Virus record (IMG/VR): IMGVR_UViG_3300038825_000310
Coordinates: 1-25,348 of that record
Strand: one strand, 5' to 3'
Length of the DNA: 25,348 nt
Source: a virus
Shown here: positions 15,268 through 24,189 of the stretch, piece by piece
Position numbering within the stretch: the first letter of the stretch is position 1
Layout: each line of letters starts with the position of its first letter
Position numbers and translations under genes: made by a program
Notes under the pieces: model-generated
The model's database searches: none
Told to the model about the DNA's origin: nothing
The model's input: only the letters and a program-made list of their open reading frames with translations

Positions 15268-15756
15268 ATGCAAAGTGAAAAGATCAATGATTTATTAATA
15301 GCTATAGAAAACGCTAGAGAAAATTTTAAATCATTAAAGAAAAGTGGGTCTAATCCTTTTTTTAAAACAAATGGAAAAGCTCATCAATTTAGTACATTAG
15401 ATGATATATTTACTTCATGTAAAGAAGCATTGGCTAATAATGAAATATCAGTGTTCTATACAGTAGAAGATAAAAATGAATTAATATTTTTGACAACTAC
15501 AATTATGCATTTACCGAGTGGTCAATATATTAAATCATCATCATCAATCGGAACTGTTAATTCCAAGCCAATAGAGATTGGTAGTGGAATAACTTATTTT
15601 CGCAGATATCACATTCAAGCTATGTTGAATTTAGAAGCTGATTTTGAAGATGATGGAAACATTGGTTCTGGAAATAGAATTAATGAAACTTTTAATAGTC
15701 ATACGGATAAGCCTAAGATTATTAATAAAATAAATAAGGAGAAATTAGATATATGA
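15268..15756 (+). CDS. erf: Erf-family single-strand annealing protein
   Basis: A 162-residue recombination protein that would coat and anneal complementary single strands. Diagnostic segments: FSTLDDIFTSCKEALANNEI (41-60), LTTTIMHLPSGQYIKSS (75-91) and the family hallmark IGSGITYFRRYHIQAMLNL (104-122) followed by the acidic DFEDDGN. These match the Erf superfamily (PF04404). The C-terminus is short and Lys/Asn-rich. It follows stem-loop 3 and an AGGAGAAAAA site. The PD-(D/E)XK nuclease downstream could supply single strands, making an annealase/exonuclease pair. Confidence 0.85.
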   Translation: MQSEKINDLLIAIENARENFKSLKKSGSNPFFKTNGKAHQFSTLDDIFTSCKEALANNEISVFYTVEDKNELIFLTTTIMHLPSGQYIKSSSSIGTVNSKPIEIGSGITYFRRYHIQAMLNLEADFEDDGNIGSGNRINETFNSHTDKPKIINKINKEKLDI

Positions 15757-15968
15757 GTAAAACATATGTAAAAATGTTCAAGAACGATAATAAGGTTGAG
15801 GGAGATTCCAAACCTTTATATCAAAACAGTAAAGTTCAAGTTAAAGAGAAAATGGTACTTGATCCAGAAAGACTTTATTCAGCCGCTATTTGGAAGAATG
15901 AAGATGGTACATTAAATCTTAAAATTGAACTTAAAGACGAACAGTATAATCAATCGCCAGACATTTAA
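15753..15968 (+). CDS. Small protein coupled to Erf (71 aa)
   Basis: A 71-residue protein starting in a 4-nt ATGA overlap with the Erf gene. The first half is basic (MSKTYVKMFKNDNKVEGDSK...), and the second has a beta-type motif RLYSAAIWKNEDGTLNLKIE, reminiscent of DUF736-like phage proteins (AALWKN..G...L). I am not certain of a family. Coupling to Erf suggests an accessory role in recombination, such as a partner or single-strand-binding helper; this is inference. Confidence 0.5.
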   Translation: MSKTYVKMFKNDNKVEGDSKPLYQNSKVQVKEKMVLDPERLYSAAIWKNEDGTLNLKIELKDEQYNQSPDI

Positions 15969-16240
15969 TGAAAAAGTACCTACGAATGTTTATGAAATAT
16001 TATGGCTATACGGAAGCTGATAGTTATTCTGAACTGTGTTGGTACTGTGCTAAAAATGTTTGGGTTGAAGTACATCATATAATTAGTAGAGGAATGGGAG
16101 GCTCAAAACATAGAGATAAAATTTCAAATCTCATTCCTCTATGCAGATCGTGTCATTCTGACAGTTCTGTAATTAATAAACAAAAAGATAAACTAAAAGA
16201 AATAGTAAGAAGGAGAATGGAAAATGCCAAAACCACTTAG
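15968..16240 (+). CDS. HNH endonuclease
   Basis: A 90-residue metal-dependent nuclease. Zinc ligands CWYC (Cys24, Cys27) and CRSC (Cys59, Cys62) frame the beta-beta-alpha-metal core with HHI (His36, His37), Asn54 and His63. This is the HNH pattern (PF01844 type). The start overlaps the upstream TAA by 1 nt. In phages such small HNH enzymes may be free-standing homing nucleases or packaging/recombination helpers; a location far from the terminase genes and next to Erf favours recombination or mobility. No intron or intein is visible beside it. Confidence 0.85.
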   Translation: MKKYLRMFMKYYGYTEADSYSELCWYCAKNVWVEVHHIISRGMGGSKHRDKISNLIPLCRSCHSDSSVINKQKDKLKEIVRRRMENAKTT

Positions 16241-16415: not shown

Positions 16416-16641
16416 GTGGGGAAACCTAATAAGTGTTAGAGATCATCAAATAAAAAAATCTCTAGATAAAAATAAAAACGTTAAGTTCGTTTATGACGGA
16501 GAAGAAATGATCCTAACAACAGAACAATTAAAAAAACCAGTCAGAACTATTCAACAGCAAGATAAGTTTTCTGAACGAATAGATAACTTATTATATTTTA
16601 ACTGGAAACCAATAGATAAAAGACAGGGGTATTTGTTATGA
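16390..16641 (+). CDS. Small basic protein, unknown function (83 aa)
   Basis: An 83-residue Lys-rich protein preceded by TTTAGGAGAAAAC, the shared ribosome-binding motif of this block. It looks mixed alpha/beta (MQTIRLRSKWGNLISVRDHQ; VKFVYDGEEMILTTEQL). No membrane segment or catalytic motif is visible. It ends in a 4-nt ATGA overlap with the nuclease gene, so it is probably made with it. Function unknown; the early replication/recombination context is the only clue. Confidence 0.5.
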   Translation: MQTIRLRSKWGNLISVRDHQIKKSLDKNKNVKFVYDGEEMILTTEQLKKPVRTIQQQDKFSERIDNLLYFNWKPIDKRQGYLL

Positions 16642-17420
16642 TTGATCAAGAAATATTCACAAAGTTTAATTTAGAAAAAGACATGCTACCTTTTTCAGCA
16701 AGTAAGATTAAAACGTGGAAGAATAACCCAGCACAATTTGTTTTAAAGTACATTTATGGGTATCCTACAACGTCAAATCACGCTATGGAACGAGGTACAG
16801 CAGTTGAGTTTGGTTTAAATCATTTATTTACGAATAATTACAGCGTTGAAAATTGCTACGAAAAAGCAATTACCTATTACAAATCGTCAACAGCTTTATT
16901 AGACAAAGAAGATGATAAGCAATATGAGATGATTGCACCAATGGTTGAGTTATGTTTTGATAAACTATCTGCAGTATGGTTCAAAGATTATTATTTGTCA
17001 TTTCAAGGTCGCATAGATACAAACATCTTAGATATACCTTTTTATGGGTTTACTGATTTTGTTTTTGAATACGAAGATAAAATATTAATTGTTGATCTTA
17101 AAACAAAAGCTAAGTTTATGCCAACGCATGATGATATGCTTCAAATGGCTATTTATCAAAAAGCTTTTGAAGAAAAGTTTGACAAACCTATAGATATTAA
17201 ACTTCTTATTTGTACACCTAAGAGATGTGAATTTGTTGATTTTACACCGCATAAAAAATACTTAAAAGAAATTGAAATGCACTTAATGAGCTGTGCTAAT
17301 GTATTTAATGCCTGTAATGAACCAGACGATATGAAATCATTTGTCGTTCCTAATCTAGATGATTGGACATGGAATAGTGCAGAATTATTGGAACAAAGAT
17401 ATGATGTATGGGGCATATGA
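16638..17420 (+). CDS. PD-(D/E)XK (RecB/Cas4-like) exonuclease
   Basis: A 260-residue nuclease of the PDDEXK_1 type. FSASKIKTWKNNPAQFVLKY (19-38) is the usual opening; ERGTAVEFGLNH (51-62) supplies the early His62; GFTDFVFE (137-144) gives Asp140; ILIVDLKTKAK (149-159) gives Asp153 and Lys155; MLQMAIYQKAF (167-177) gives the Gln/Tyr motif. All catalytic positions of the family are present. No Cys cluster for a 4Fe-4S centre is seen, unlike Cas4. With Erf upstream it probably resects DNA ends for annealing. It is coupled to both neighbours by overlaps. Confidence 0.82.
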   Translation: MIDQEIFTKFNLEKDMLPFSASKIKTWKNNPAQFVLKYIYGYPTTSNHAMERGTAVEFGLNHLFTNNYSVENCYEKAITYYKSSTALLDKEDDKQYEMIAPMVELCFDKLSAVWFKDYYLSFQGRIDTNILDIPFYGFTDFVFEYEDKILIVDLKTKAKFMPTHDDMLQMAIYQKAFEEKFDKPIDIKLLICTPKRCEFVDFTPHKKYLKEIEMHLMSCANVFNACNEPDDMKSFVVPNLDDWTWNSAELLEQRYDVWGI

Positions 17421-17715: not shown

Positions 17716-18445
17716 ATCATTCTGTGAAGTAGGTGCATTTATTTGGCTATTATTAGAGGCTAGCTTTGCCGATAGAAAATTCAGAATAAATAATGCAGAA
17801 ATTAATCTGAAAAGGGGTCAGTTATGCTGTTCCTTAACATATATGGCTCAAGCCTTTAACTGGCATAAGTCAAAAGTAAGCAGATATTTGGAACGATTAA
17901 TTGAGAATGGAACAATTACAAGCGAAACACCAATCGGAACACCAGCCGATACACCAAATGTCCTTACAATCTGCCAATATGATGACTATCAAGATACGCC
18001 ATCCGATACACCAAGCGAAATTAAACATAATAAACTATATATAAATAAAGAAATAAATGATGCTTTTGAGGATATATGGAATAAGCTCAAGATCAAACGA
18101 GGTACAAAAGCAAAAGGTCTTAAAGCATACAACAAACTGCACGGTAAAATAGAACCCAACATCCTCATAGAGAAATTTAATGCGAAGGCAGATAGCGTGA
18201 GAGAAGTCAAGTTTTTGCCTCATTTTAGTTCTTGGTTAAATGATGAGGGTTGGACGGAAGAATTGCTGACAGAGAAAAAAGATGATAAACCGATTGGTAT
18301 TATACAAAGAGATCAATTTAGGAATCTACCTTTATGGCAAAAAGGTATTAAAACGATGAATGATGATGATACTGATATTCTGTTAAAGTATAAACAAGGA
18401 GAAATAACAAAAGAAGCTATGGAAAAAATGAATTTTAGCATATAA
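17645..18445 (+). CDS. Replication initiator, lambda O-like organisation
   Basis: A 266-residue protein with an N-terminal winged-helix domain (about 1-92): YIKISRAILYHPSLQKKDRS, then GQLCCSLTYMAQAFNWHKSK and VSRYLERLIENGTI, the pattern of phage replication proteins. Residues 94-105 and 117-124 are four-residue repeats (xTPx), encoded by the 12-bp repeats 17922-18014. The C-terminal part (about 138-206, FEDIWNKLKIKRGTKAKGLK; FLPHFSSWLNDEGWTEE) resembles the partner-binding region of phage initiators. The role would be to bind iterons in its own gene, melt the adjacent AT-rich DNA and recruit the host helicase. It has an ATTAGGAGAAAAAAATG start. No helicase-loader gene is seen next to it. Confidence 0.72.
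   Translation: MIKKGYIKISRAILYHPSLQKKDRSFCEVGAFIWLLLEASFADRKFRINNAEINLKRGQLCCSLTYMAQAFNWHKSKVSRYLERLIENGTITSETPIGTPADTPNVLTICQYDDYQDTPSDTPSEIKHNKLYINKEINDAFEDIWNKLKIKRGTKAKGLKAYNKLHGKIEPNILIEKFNAKADSVREVKFLPHFSSWLNDEGWTEELLTEKKDDKPIGIIQRDQFRNLPLWQKGIKTMNDDDTDILLKYKQGEITKEAMEKMNFSI
17922..18014 (+). repeat. 12-bp iterons inside the initiator gene (origin candidate)
   Basis: Three contiguous 12-bp units, GCGAAACACCAA (17922-17933), TCGGAACACCAG (17934-17945) and CCGATACACCAA (17946-17957), and after a 33-bp gap two more, AAGATACGCCAT (17991-18002) and CCGATACACCAA (18003-18014). Two units are identical and all fit about NCGAWACACCAN. They stay in frame as xTPx. Direct repeats within an initiator gene next to AT-rich DNA are the lambda ori layout. 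Confidence 0.65.
18015..18060 (+). other. AT-rich stretch, possible DNA unwinding element
   Basis: Immediately after the last iteron, only 7 of 46 bases are G or C, with a core of CTATATATAAATAAAG. Its place beside the iterons fits the region that melts first at initiation. It also encodes the Lys/Asn-rich linker of the initiator. Confidence 0.5.
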
Positions 18446-18452
18446 ATAATTG

Positions 18453-18626
18453 ATGGACGAAGATTTAAAGAAATTATATATAACTATTCCAGACGTACAT
18501 GGTGGCTTTTCTGCTGTGATACAGATTTCTGGATTTGAAACGGAAGAAGAAGCAAACGATTATTTACTTAAACATCATCAAGTTTATGGAATGGATATAT
18601 TAACACCAGATCAAACTATTCATTAA
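18453..18626 (+). CDS. Small protein before terminase (57 aa), unknown
   Basis: ATG 18453 opens a 57-residue frame ending at TAA 18624-18626, which overlaps the next ATG. The acidic product has alternating strands and a helix (LYITIPDVHGGFSAVIQISG; TEEEANDYLLKHH), a compact alpha/beta shape. It starts 7 nt after the initiator stop without a strong ribosome-binding site. Coupling to the small terminase gene suggests it belongs to the packaging block. No family recognised. Confidence 0.5.
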   Translation: MDEDLKKLYITIPDVHGGFSAVIQISGFETEEEANDYLLKHHQVYGMDILTPDQTIH

Positions 18627-18925
18627 TGGCAAGACCAAAAGTATACGACATAAAAGAAAAAGAAGTAGTTAAATTAGCTTCTTACGGCTGTACCAATGTA
18701 GAGATTGCAGACTTTTTTGGATGTGATGAAAGCCTTATTCGTAAGAGTTATTCCGAATATTTGACAAAAGGAAGAGCAAATATGAAGATAAGACTAAGGA
18801 AGATGCAATTTAACCTTGCAGAGAAGTCAGCAGTAATGGGAATATGGCTTGGAAAACAAATGTTAAATCAATCAGATTATCCAATTACAGAAGATACAGA
18901 GCCATTAAAGTGGTCAGTTGATTAA
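18626..18925 (+). CDS. terS: Terminase small subunit
   Basis: A 99-residue protein expected to recognise phage DNA for packaging. Residues about 11-45 form a helix-turn-helix (VVKLASYGCTNVEIADFFGC; DESLIRKSYSEYL). The following part, KGRANMKIRLRKMQFNLAEK then AVMGIWLGKQMLNQSD, fits small terminases (GRA...LR..Q...A..G...M..WLGK..LG..D). It is short for the family but seems complete. The last codons, PLKWSVD, are repeated after the methyltransferase downstream (19467-19491). The large subunit is 1.2 kb away, separated by two methyltransferase genes, where the two are usually adjacent. Confidence 0.72.
   Translation: MARPKVYDIKEKEVVKLASYGCTNVEIADFFGCDESLIRKSYSEYLTKGRANMKIRLRKMQFNLAEKSAVMGIWLGKQMLNQSDYPITEDTEPLKWSVD
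18901..18925 (+). repeat. 25-bp direct repeat, copy 1 (3' end of terS)
   Basis: GCCATTAAAGTGGTC followed by AGTTGATTAA forms the final codons and stop of terS. Copy 2 at 19467-19491 matches at 23 of 25 positions. Together they flank the MT-A70 gene exactly. Confidence 0.85.
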
Positions 18926-19465
18926 GTGATACCTTTTCCAGATAAGAAATATAATATTATTTATGCTGATCCACCTTGGGAATATAAAGAGTCTGGAACA
19001 GGAACTAGGGTTATAAATAGTCACTATCCTACAATGAATATTAATAATATAAAAAAATTACCTGTTAAAAATATTTCACATAAAAAATCAATTTTATTTT
19101 TATGGATAACATTTCCAAGATTAGAGCAAGGGTTAGATGTTATTCAATCTTGGGGTTTTACATATTATGGTCTTGGTTTTGATTGGATTAAAACATCTGA
19201 AAATGGAAACTTATCTTGGGGAATGGGTTATTACACTAGGCAAAATACAGAAGTATGCTTAATAGGAGTCAAAAAAAAACCATACAGATTTAAACCATTA
19301 GTTAGAAACGAGTTATCTGCTGTTATTCATAAAAGATTATCACATTCTGAAAAACCTAATATTTTTAGAAAAAAAATTGTAAATATAATTGGCGATCTCC
19401 CACGCATAGAACTATTTGCTAGACAAAAAGTAGATGGTTGGGATTGTTGGGGTAATGAAGTCTAA
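18926..19465 (+). CDS. MT-A70-type adenine-N6 DNA methyltransferase
   Basis: A 179-residue methyltransferase starting at GTG 18926, directly after the terS stop. The catalytic motif DPPW is at 15-18 (IIYADPPWEYKE), followed by FLWITFP (about 58-64) and EVCLIGVKKKPYRFKP. The C-terminus (KPNIFRKKIVNIIG; PRIELFARQKVDGWDCWGNE) is typical of MT-A70 proteins (PF05063), which transfer a methyl group from S-adenosylmethionine to adenine N6. No restriction enzyme gene is nearby, so it is an orphan enzyme, probably protecting phage DNA. The gene appears AT-richer than its neighbours and is flanked by a direct repeat, a sign of insertion. Confidence 0.85.
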   Translation: MIPFPDKKYNIIYADPPWEYKESGTGTRVINSHYPTMNINNIKKLPVKNISHKKSILFLWITFPRLEQGLDVIQSWGFTYYGLGFDWIKTSENGNLSWGMGYYTRQNTEVCLIGVKKKPYRFKPLVRNELSAVIHKRLSHSEKPNIFRKKIVNIIGDLPRIELFARQKVDGWDCWGNEV

Positions 19466-19491
19466 TGCCATTAAAGTGGTCGGCTGATTAA
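19465..19491 (+). pseudogene. Duplicated terS 3' end, now an 8-codon mini-ORF (MPLKWSAD)
   Basis: ATG 19465 overlaps the methyltransferase stop and its own TAA overlaps the next ATG (19491). The eight codons copy the end of terS (PLKWSVD) at the DNA level. It reads as a remnant of duplication; it may keep translation coupled from one methyltransferase to the next. Confidence 0.6.
19467..19491 (+). repeat. 25-bp direct repeat, copy 2
   Basis: GCCATTAAAGTGGTC followed by GGCTGATTAA; differs from copy 1 (18901-18925) at two positions. It lies between the two methyltransferase genes, 566 bp after copy 1. Confidence 0.85.
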
Positions 19492-20174
19492 TGATAAATT
19501 TATATAATGATGATTGTTTAAAAATATTACAAAATTTAAATGAAAATAGCATTGATTTAATAATTACTTCTCCACCTTATAATCTGGGAAATAAACATCA
19601 TACTGGAAATAAATATCATAGTTCTTATAATGATAAAATGCCTGAAAATGAATATCAAATATGGCAAATCAATGTTCTTAATGAATGTTTTCGTGTTCTG
19701 AAAGACAATGGCTCAATGATCTATAATCACAAAAATAGAATTTCTAAAGGCGTTCAAATTTCTCCTTATGAATGGATTTTAAAAACTAAATTTATAGTCA
19801 AACAAGAAATAGTATGGATAAATAGAAGTCAAAATTTTGATAAAATAAGATTATATCCTTTTACAGAGAGAGTATATTGGTTGGCTAAGAATCCAAAAAC
19901 CAAACTCATTAATACATTAAATAAATATGATGTATTTGATTGGAATGAATGGAAACCAGTTGGCACAAAAGGTAAACACACGAGAGCTTTTCCAGAAAAA
20001 ATGGTAGAAGATTTTTTAAGTTTATTTCCAAGTGCTAATATAATTCTTGATTGTTTTATGGGAAGTGGAACGACAGGGGTTATTTGTAAAAGAAATAATT
20101 TAAATTTTATAGGTATAGAATTAAACAAAGAACATTTTGAAAACGCAAAACAAAGAATAGATGCCGCTAACTAA
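19491..20174 (+). CDS. N6-adenine/N4-cytosine DNA methyltransferase (N6_N4_Mtase)
   Basis: A 227-residue methyltransferase. The catalytic TSPPYN lies at 26-31 and the S-adenosylmethionine-binding DCFMGSGTTG at 187-196, so motif IV precedes motif I, the beta-class order of PF01555. The end FIGIELNKEHFENAKQRI is the usual acidic loop and helix. TSPPY is shared by N6-adenine and N4-cytosine enzymes, so the target base is uncertain. No cognate nuclease is seen. It overlaps the large terminase gene by 14 nt and is coupled upstream through the mini-ORF. A role in protection from host restriction is likely but inferred. Confidence 0.85.
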   Translation: MINLYNDDCLKILQNLNENSIDLIITSPPYNLGNKHHTGNKYHSSYNDKMPENEYQIWQINVLNECFRVLKDNGSMIYNHKNRISKGVQISPYEWILKTKFIVKQEIVWINRSQNFDKIRLYPFTERVYWLAKNPKTKLINTLNKYDVFDWNEWKPVGTKGKHTRAFPEKMVEDFLSLFPSANIILDCFMGSGTTGVICKRNNLNFIGIELNKEHFENAKQRIDAAN

Positions 20175-21369
20175 ACCTCAAAAAAAAGTAATACTATGTG
20201 ATAAGCGTTTCAGAGTGCTTATATCTGGGCGTAGGTTCGGTAAGACATTCCTTGCTATTCAAGAGATGGCTAAGTTCTCAAGGTTTCCTAATCAAAAAGT
20301 ATGGTATATCTCTCCTAGCTACAGGCAATCTAAAACTATTTGTTGGGATATGCTAAAACAACAAATGATTAAACATAGATGGGTTCAAAAGATTAATGAA
20401 GCTGATCTATCAATGGTTCTTAGAAATAACTCTGTAATTAGCTTAAAAGGTGCTGATAATGAACAATCACTTCGTGGTGTAGGATTAAACTTTGTTATCC
20501 TGGACGAATTTGCCGATATTAAACCTCAAGCATGGTATGAGGTAATTAGACCAACATTATCAGATACACTTGGTTCTGCTTTATTCTGCTCAAGTCCAAA
20601 AGGATTTAACTTTGCATATGACCTGTATTCAAAGCAAGACCCAGAATGGCAATCATTCAAATATACCACATTAGAAGGTGGTCAAGTAAGCCAGGAAGAA
20701 ATAGAACAAGCTAAAAACGATCTAGATGAACGTACATTCCAACAGGAATATCTAGCAACATTTGTTAATTATGCTGGTATTATTTACTATAACTTTGATA
20801 GGAATACGCATATCATAGATCATTATGAAAGAGATTCTAAGGTCATTCATATTGGTATGGATTTTAATATTGATCCTATGGTTTGTGTTGTAGCTCAACA
20901 ACATCAAAATGATTTAATTATTGATGATGAAATACAGATATGGAGTTCTAATACTTCAGAAATGATTGATGAAATTAAATCTAGGTATCAAGGTTATAGA
21001 ATATTTGTTTATCCAGACCCAGCGTCAAGACAACGTAAAACTTCTGCTGGAGGTATGACCGATTTAGCTTTGTTAAGAAATGCTGGCTTTGAAGTAAGAG
21101 TTAGATCACAACATCCATTAGTAAGAGATAGAATAAACGCTGTTAACTCCAAGCTCAAGAACGCTAATGGAGTGTCAAGTCTTTTTATAACAAAATCTTG
21201 TAAAAACTTAATTAAGAGTTTAGAAAGACAGATATACAAAGAGGGAACAAGTGTTCCAGATAAAGATAGTGGCTTTGATCATTTTAATGATGCACTTGGC
21301 TACATGATTGAATATATGTTTCCTTTGCGTAGAGAGTTTAAACCAAGTGAACCAGCTAGGTGGAGTTGA
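20161..21369 (+). CDS. terL: Terminase large subunit
   Basis: A 402-residue packaging motor and nuclease. Walker A SGRRFGKT (22-29), Walker B FVILDEF (111-117, Asp115/Glu116) and the coupling motif SSP (144-146) form the ATPase. The RNase H-like nuclease has Asp234 (GMDFNIDP), Asp286 (VYPDPASRQRK) and FDHFNDALGY (372-381). This matches Terminase_6-type proteins, and all key acidic residues are present, so it should be active. The start lies within the end of the methyltransferase gene. It precedes the portal gene as usual. Confidence 0.93.
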   Translation: MPLTKPQKKVILCDKRFRVLISGRRFGKTFLAIQEMAKFSRFPNQKVWYISPSYRQSKTICWDMLKQQMIKHRWVQKINEADLSMVLRNNSVISLKGADNEQSLRGVGLNFVILDEFADIKPQAWYEVIRPTLSDTLGSALFCSSPKGFNFAYDLYSKQDPEWQSFKYTTLEGGQVSQEEIEQAKNDLDERTFQQEYLATFVNYAGIIYYNFDRNTHIIDHYERDSKVIHIGMDFNIDPMVCVVAQQHQNDLIIDDEIQIWSSNTSEMIDEIKSRYQGYRIFVYPDPASRQRKTSAGGMTDLALLRNAGFEVRVRSQHPLVRDRINAVNSKLKNANGVSSLFITKSCKNLIKSLERQIYKEGTSVPDKDSGFDHFNDALGYMIEYMFPLRREFKPSEPARWS

Positions 21370-23198: not shown

Positions 23199-23911
23199 GT
23201 TTTGCAAATGTAAATCAAATGTTGTTTGGTGTATCTATTCAACGAGGAGATATAAATAATTTTTCTGGTATTCAAAAGTTTGGCTACAATGCTTCTGTTG
23301 GTACTTCTTTTGAAACTATCTGGGATGGTGGCGGAGATTATACTTTTATAACTTCTGCTGGAACTGCTACTGCAACAAGTTCAGATACAGGTTCAGATAA
23401 TACAGGAACTGTTGAGATACAAGGATTAGACTCTAATTATGATCTAGCTACTGAAACATTAACGATTGGTGGTTCTGCTGGTTCTACAAGTTTTATCAGA
23501 GTATTTAGAGCAAAGATGATTAATGCTAATACAGGTAACGCAAATGTAGGAACAATTACTATAACAGTTTCATCAACAACAGTTGCACAGATACAACCTA
23601 CTTATGGTCAAACATTAATGGCTGTTTATACTATACCTAGAAAATACCAAGCATATTTAGTCCAAATGGATATTGGAAGTTCTAAAGATTTAGAAAATGA
23701 AATTAAATTTAGAATTAAAGAAATAGATAATGGCAATTCATGGAATACTAGATCATTTATTACAACTAGAGGTGGCTTTGTAGAAAAGAATTTTGCTGTA
23801 CCAGAAATTATTAATGCAAAAACTGATATAGAAATGAGAGCTAAATCAAGTGCAACATCATCTATTAGTTCTGGCTTTGAATTAATACTAGAAAAAATAG
23901 ATCAATCATAG
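23195..23911 (+). CDS. Virion structural protein (head decoration or fibre-like)
   Basis: A 238-residue beta-rich protein, Gly/Ser/Thr-rich with few charged residues in the middle. The opening GIQKFGYNASVGTSFETIWD then GGGDYTF, and the later TVEIQGLDSNYDLATETLTI, match a virion protein type common in marine phages (KFG.N...G...T.WD.GG.Y; VEI.GLD..Y). Such proteins are found as structural components, possibly capsid decoration. Not the major capsid protein, which should follow the scaffold gene beyond the window. Coupled on both sides by overlaps. Confidence 0.65.
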   Translation: MSFANVNQMLFGVSIQRGDINNFSGIQKFGYNASVGTSFETIWDGGGDYTFITSAGTATATSSDTGSDNTGTVEIQGLDSNYDLATETLTIGGSAGSTSFIRVFRAKMINANTGNANVGTITITVSSTTVAQIQPTYGQTLMAVYTIPRKYQAYLVQMDIGSSKDLENEIKFRIKEIDNGNSWNTRSFITTRGGFVEKNFAVPEIINAKTDIEMRAKSSATSSISSGFELILEKIDQS

Positions 23912-24189
23912 TGGCTAAGTATCAAGGCAGAGCAGTTAAGTTAAACAAACCTTTTCGTACTCCAAGCGAAAGAAAAAAGTTTGCGGTATATGTAAAAGAC
24001 CGTTCAACAGGTAATGTAAAGAAGGTTAGATTTGGCGATCCTAATATGAAGATTAAAAAGTCAAACCCAGCTAGGCAAAGAAGTTTCCTGGCAAGGCATG
24101 GGGCTATTCTCAAAAAGGTGCGAGGACAAAAAACCCTAGCCCCTGTCTATTGGGCTATTAAATCATGGAGAAAAGGTTTTAATGTATAA
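23911..24189 (+). CDS. Conserved small basic head-region protein (92 aa)
   Basis: A 92-residue protein starting at GTG 23911, which overlaps the previous TAG. The motif KKFAVYVKDRSTGNVKKVRF, GDPNMKIKKSNPARQRSFLA, RHG...APVYWAIKSW is characteristic of a small protein family found beside head genes in many phages (RFGDP.M....NP.R..SF.ARH...YW..K.W); the biochemical role is not known to me. The usual Cys residues of that family are absent here. Location before the head morphogenesis gene supports a virion or assembly role. Confidence 0.7.
   Translation: MAKYQGRAVKLNKPFRTPSERKKFAVYVKDRSTGNVKKVRFGDPNMKIKKSNPARQRSFLARHGAILKKVRGQKTLAPVYWAIKSWRKGFNV

Follow-up and report, generated by a model that had tools for sequence, protein, structure and literature searches.

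Two methyltransferase genes stacked between terS and terL of a marine phage: a short repeat as the probable scar of recombination between loaded cargo slots

Two methyltransferase genes, one of the MT-A70 family and one of the N6/N4 family, lie in succession between the small (terS) and large (terL) terminase subunit genes of a phage represented by a single metagenomic virus record in IMG/VR (25,348 bases, the whole of which was analyzed and is referred to here as the window). The end of terS is repeated between these two genes, and this repeat is probably a recombination scar, at which two insertions, terS-(MT-A70)-terL and terS-(N6/N4 methyltransferase)-terL, were joined. The junction between terS and terL is a cargo slot, empty in most relatives and occupied by DNA-modification genes in many others; the second copy of the repeat is hybrid in its anatomy, the genes of the locus are intact, and analogous scars are present in three other loci with stacked cargo.

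Judged from its sequence, the phage is a marine tailed phage related to the viruses of SAR11 bacteria, and its host is probably a SAR11-type or similar bacterium, given that its TerL is 54–56% identical to those of four cultured pelagiphages (HTVC026P being the closest, at 56%). A scan of genome contigs for relatives of terL yielded only distant ones (38–44%). The features of the locus are listed in Table 1.

Table 1. Positions of the genes and repeat elements discussed, in window coordinates.
Feature	Position	Strand	Sequence, profile match or remark
Erf-like single-strand annealing protein	15268..15756	+	PF04404 1e-18; PHROG 2324 1e-24
PD-(D/E)XK exonuclease	16638..17420	+	PF12705 2e-9; PHROG 69 exonuclease
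58-codon gene	18450..18626	+	Conserved ahead of terS; in relatives, the boundary between the two genes is a further cargo slot
terS, small terminase subunit, 99 aa, intact	18626..18925	+	PHROG 309 terminase small subunit, E 4e-5
Repeat copy 1, native terS 3' end, allele KWSVD	18901-18925	+	GCCATTAAAGTGGTCAGTTGATTAA
MT-A70 family adenine methyltransferase, cargo 1	18926..19465	+	PF05063 E 9e-29; start GTG, DPPW present
8-codon ORF MPLKWSAD-stop	19465..19491	+	Best read as a terL start fused to a terS end; overlaps each neighbor by one base
Left half of the putative scar, ATGCCATTAA	19465..19474	+	10/10 with the terL starts of, e.g., L430, L432, L433 and L435
Repeat copy 2, terS 3' end carrying a different allele (KWSAD)	19467-19491	+	GCCATTAAAGTGGTCGGCTGATTAA
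N6_N4 family DNA methyltransferase, cargo 2	19491..20174	+	PF01555 E 2e-35; SPPY and GSGTT motifs
terL, large terminase subunit, intact	20161..21369	+	PF03237 E 7e-13

The terS gene of the window is undamaged, as the preliminary description of this DNA had stated, and as long as that of its relatives; its homologues adjoining terL are 64–94% identical to it (first 80 loci). The MT-A70 gene matches its Pfam profile over positions 1–172 of 172 (101 bits, against a cut-off of 23.9), and its product resembles solved MT-A70/METTL3 proteins. The N6_N4 gene matches over positions 1–220 of 221 (123 bits, against a cut-off of 26.7), and the closest solved structures to its product are a DNA cytosine-N4 methyltransferase (8s9m) and DpnA (5hfj). 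Both enzymes are likely to guard the phage DNA against restriction, as their families suggest. The slot of the window contains no terminator, and promoter-like sites of the sigma-70 type are at chance level there (11, against 11.3 in shuffled sequences), so that the cargo genes are probably expressed as members of the terminase operon; their expression between the terminase genes would put protection before packaging. The last codons of several N6_N4 methyltransferases (RIDA, RINA or similar; window 20160–20174, L005, L048 and L077) double as the start of terL in another frame.

After loci identical in both terS and gap had been discarded, the relatives of terS retrieved from IMG/VR amounted to 185 loci, 174 of which show terL; these 174 are interrelated, and the counts describe the sample, not independent events. 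The slot is empty in 125 of them (terL within a few bases of terS) and loaded in 49, and it is because terS so often abuts terL that the MT-A70 gene can be recognized as inserted cargo, as had been proposed before any relatives were compared. The inserts occupy precisely the interval from the terS stop to the terL start, and are mostly DNA methyltransferases, of the MT-A70 type (L042, L058, L259–L277, L299, L355, L426, L430 and others), the N6_N4 type (L005, L048, L077, L243 and L422) or the Dam type (L048), with a weak EcoRI-methylase-like match in L035. The other inserts are a 72-aa HNH_3 gene (L063, L319, L341, L356, L376, L422 and L435), a PAPS-reductase-like gene and a 92-aa gene of unknown function. 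Kin of the 92-aa gene of the structural region of the window (23911–24189) occupy the slot in L297, L300, L311, L313 and L452, and are also found between the terS-like and terL genes of HTVC026P and HTVC112P.

The slot MT-A70 genes of relatives (n = 21) have a median pairwise dN/dS of 0.31, which indicates that this type of cargo has been kept working. The slot MT-A70 protein nearest to that of the window is 49% identical, leaving the earlier description of the insertion as recent unsupported. Kin of the two enzymes in other phages, up to 76% identical for MT-A70 (L201) and 69% for N6/N4 (L238–L242), have no related terminase genes in view. No description of the slot was found in the literature searched, most subscription journals being outside reach. 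The start codon of terL (window position 20161) is GTG in 57 of the 125 empty loci and ATG in 46 of 47 loaded ones, and in several pairs of closely related loci, one empty and one loaded, this first base of terL is the main difference. A second slot exists at the junction of the 58-codon gene and terS (window position 18626), where the gap is below 30 nt in 28 loci and 372–2136 nt in 24 of 52; the genes found there include a ParB-N6_N4 methylase fusion, PAPS-reductase-like genes, a C5 methylase and a Mom family gene (loci L004, L021, L264 and L282), and no scars of the stacked-cargo type stood out at this junction.

The repeat that had been reported at the end of terS and again after the methyltransferase is well above chance. 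Its two copies, 566 bp apart, are identical at 23 of 25 positions, whereas the best match to the repeat unit in 500 dinucleotide shuffles of 18300–20400 was 19/25, and the best 25-mer pair anywhere in 60 shuffles reached 21/25; the rest of the actual window contains no match to the unit above 17/25. The MT-A70 gene is the sole gene between the copies, and copy 2 is followed by the N6_N4 gene and then terL. The short ORF described in copy 2 is also present as stated, linked to both neighbors by overlapping codons: its start codon takes its A from the stop of the MT-A70 gene (TAATG), and its own stop ends in the A that opens the ATG of the next gene (TAATG). The 22 coding bases of copy 1 are identical to those of one relative (L007). 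The copies hold different natural alleles of terS, SVD in copy 1 and SAD in copy 2; GGCT, as in copy 2, is found at the site in 19 of 148 compared relatives, and AGTT, as in copy 1, in 17, so the differences in copy 2 need not be due to decay.

Copy 2 is best read as a terL start (ATGCCATTAA) fused to a terS end (GCCATTAA...TGATTAA). The repeat feature starts at 19465 rather than 19467, because the ATG and the bases next to it (ATGCCATTAA) are those of a terL start; the feature also takes in the second methyltransferase. The first eight bases of copy 2, GCCATTAA, are common to the terL start and the terS end. Its left edge, TA/ATGCCATTAA, is the standard boundary between cargo and terL, where TA/ATG is present in 30 of 47 loaded loci and TA/RTG in 21 of 22 MT-A70-type inserts, and its right edge, GATTAATGAT, is the boundary between terS and cargo in L005. 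When six forms of the terL start were compared with the window terS, the sole 8/8 match (GCCATTAA) fell at 18901, the first base of the repeat. A terL-start sequence thus lies between the two cargo genes, as in the other scarred loci, but it is just 10 nt long, 8 of them in common with terS; since only the AT of its ATG is specific to terL, the case for a hybrid depends on the pattern at the boundaries together with loci L042, L048 and L422.

Leftover terL-start sequence lies between the cargoes in four of the six stacked loci, including the window, and an N6_N4 gene is downstream in all four. The match to terL starts is 23/24 nt in L042, 21/24 in L048 and 24/24 in L422, the last figure referring to the first 24 nt of a terL-like stretch; shuffled controls gave 18 at most. 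In L042, terS and an MT-A70 gene are followed by GTGCCATTATCTGATCTTCAAAGA (compared with the terL starts of its own group), which reads through, in the same frame, to the N6_N4-type start LYNDDC. In L048, a Dam-type gene is followed by ATGCCTCTAAGTGAGCCACAAAGATAA, an 8-codon ORF (MPLSEPQR-stop), the N6_N4 gene and terL. In L422, an HNH gene precedes about 14 terL-start-like codons (MPLTNPQRNVIDNS) in frame with the N6_N4 methyltransferase, after which a complete terL start follows. The N6_N4 genes that open in frame with the first codons of terL (L422:3524–4312 and L042:5168–5359) are natural TerL-methyltransferase fusions. The junctions of the other two stacked loci, L243 (MT-A70 then N6_N4) and L435 (HNH then EcoRI-like), are clean, so scars are not obligatory. 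No single-cargo locus had a terL-start scar in this search, which is blind to terL scars as short as the 10-nt part in the window.

The terL-like beginning of copy 2 points to a join between two slots that were already loaded. One parent would have been a genome of the type terS-(MT-A70)-terL, and the other, presumably brought together with it by co-infection, a genome of the type terS-(N6/N4 methyltransferase)-terL. An out-of-register crossover between the terL start of the first (ATGCCATTAA) and the terS end of the second (GCCATTAAAGTGG), over the common GCCATTAA (about 8 bp), would produce terS-(MT-A70)-(10 nt of terL start/25 nt of terS end, 8 nt in common)-(N6/N4 methyltransferase)-terL. 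In its general form, the terL start behind cargo A would join the terS end before cargo B, or the start of cargo B itself, thereby stacking the two cargoes and keeping a complete terL behind B. The leftover would become the 8-codon ORF, and because this retains the stop/start overlaps, the operon could still be read by coupled translation. The Erf-like protein encoded by the window is a candidate agent of short-homology recombination, with the PD-(D/E)XK exonuclease as its probable partner, and the two could have made the join. Red-type proteins are reported to join diverged DNA, Erf having remained to be tested in that work (Martinsohn 2008, PMC2327257), and RecET-type recombination over 5–13 bp is cited in the same article (PMC2327257).

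Neither parent was identified, because a scan of IMG/VR for a terS end directly followed by an ATGAT cargo start returned only L005, the N6/N4 enzyme of which is 30% identical to that of the window. A DNA pattern scan for MPLKWS-like starts gave, among the matches listed, a convincing terS-terL pair only in the contig of L141, and segment-by-segment identity to relatives across the slot (haplotype comparison) was mixed as to the parent of each side. The precise loss of the gene through its flanking repeats, suggested in the preliminary description, is geometrically possible and would give terS-(N6/N4 methyltransferase)-terL, an arrangement that exists, with another gene, in L005, but the excised form of the locus itself was not found in IMG/VR.

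The repeat had originally been attributed to the insertion of the MT-A70 gene: its entry behind terS would have generated a copy of the final 25 bp of terS beyond the gene, by target-site or repair duplication. Near-identical copies do flank this gene exactly and terS is intact, but such an origin is improbable: no other loaded locus has a comparable terS-end duplication, including the single-cargo MT-A70 loci (L058, L262–L277, L299, L355, L426 and others), the two base differences match different natural alleles, the second copy starts like terL, and the interval between terS and terL contains neither transposase nor integrase. The notion of a clean cargo insertion is, thus, right for the slot in general, and most likely wrong as the origin of the repeat. 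The duplication of a transposon target site was rejected, the methyltransferase ORF being the only one between the copies, with no transposase, no pair of inverted repeats ending at the two edges of the MT-A70 insert, and no flanking repeat at the other slot MT-A70 loci. A homing endonuclease cassette was also rejected, as the window has no endonuclease gene in the terS-terL interval, its HNH gene (15968–16240) being located outside the slot.

It is very unlikely that an assembler misjoined two strains with different cargo, even though the window is one metagenomic virus record and the join of a terS end to an N6_N4 start recurs among IMG/VR contigs only in L005, which is a different locus. 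About 8 bp are common at the join, well under the k-mers used by assemblers, all the ORFs run through it with exact overlaps, and similar joins are found in other assemblies (L042, L048 and L422). It is equally unlikely that the repeat has been retained for a function, such as that of a leader for translational coupling or of part of a pac signal overlapping the end of terS. In favor of such a role, the scar still overlaps each neighbor by stop and start codons, an 8-codon linker occurs in L048 too, and pac sites lie inside terS in some phages, but the element is absent from all single-cargo loci and L243 stacks two methyltransferases without a linker. The joining of two loaded slots, by comparison, is consistent with the allele difference, the terL-like start and the scars of other loci.

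Like morons, the cargo genes are additional genes separating two that adjoin each other in most relatives (125 of 174 loci), and their G+C content (29% for the MT-A70 gene and 26% for the N6_N4 gene) differs from that of terS and terL (34%). Unlike morons, they have no terminator or promoter-like site above chance (sigma-70 type scan), they are joined to their neighbors by overlapping codons, and two of them are stacked with a scar in between. HNH genes beside terminase genes are known as packaging components, and the 72-aa HNH_3 gene is cargo of the same slot in several relatives, whereas the slot of the window holds methyltransferases. These have the full-length Pfam matches and catalytic motifs of phage MT-A70 and N6_N4 DNA methyltransferases, but the MT-A70 gene lies between terS and terL, whereas the MT-A70-like genes of the two annotated phages inspected, Pm86 and Venkman, are located among early/replication genes. 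Illegitimate or homeologous mosaicism at phage gene boundaries has been described (Juhala 2000, cited in PMC2327257; Martinsohn 2008, PMC2327257), and the window resembles it in its boundary joins over short similarity and in encoding an annealing-type recombinase, but differs in that its join is out of register, from terL start to terS end, such that cargo would be stacked and a readable fossil of the site left behind. The locus is a variant of ordinary phage mosaicism.

A broader proposal, possible but doubtful, is that both junctions beside terS serve as a fast-exchanging rack for MT-A70, N6/N4, Dam, C5, Mom and PAPS-reductase-like genes, tied through translation to the packaging genes, with cargo gained and stacked by annealing between terL starts and terS ends and shed via the leftover repeats; the population would then have reversible control over its genome modification. 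The locus lets one read off how accessory genes may be added serially to a small phage genome while their essential neighbors stay unharmed. Scars of this type show which sequences were joined, and therefore allow the contribution of annealing over short homology to phage mosaicism to be tested. The neighborhood of terS is a place in which to seek DNA-modification (anti-restriction) genes in the kin of SAR11 phages.
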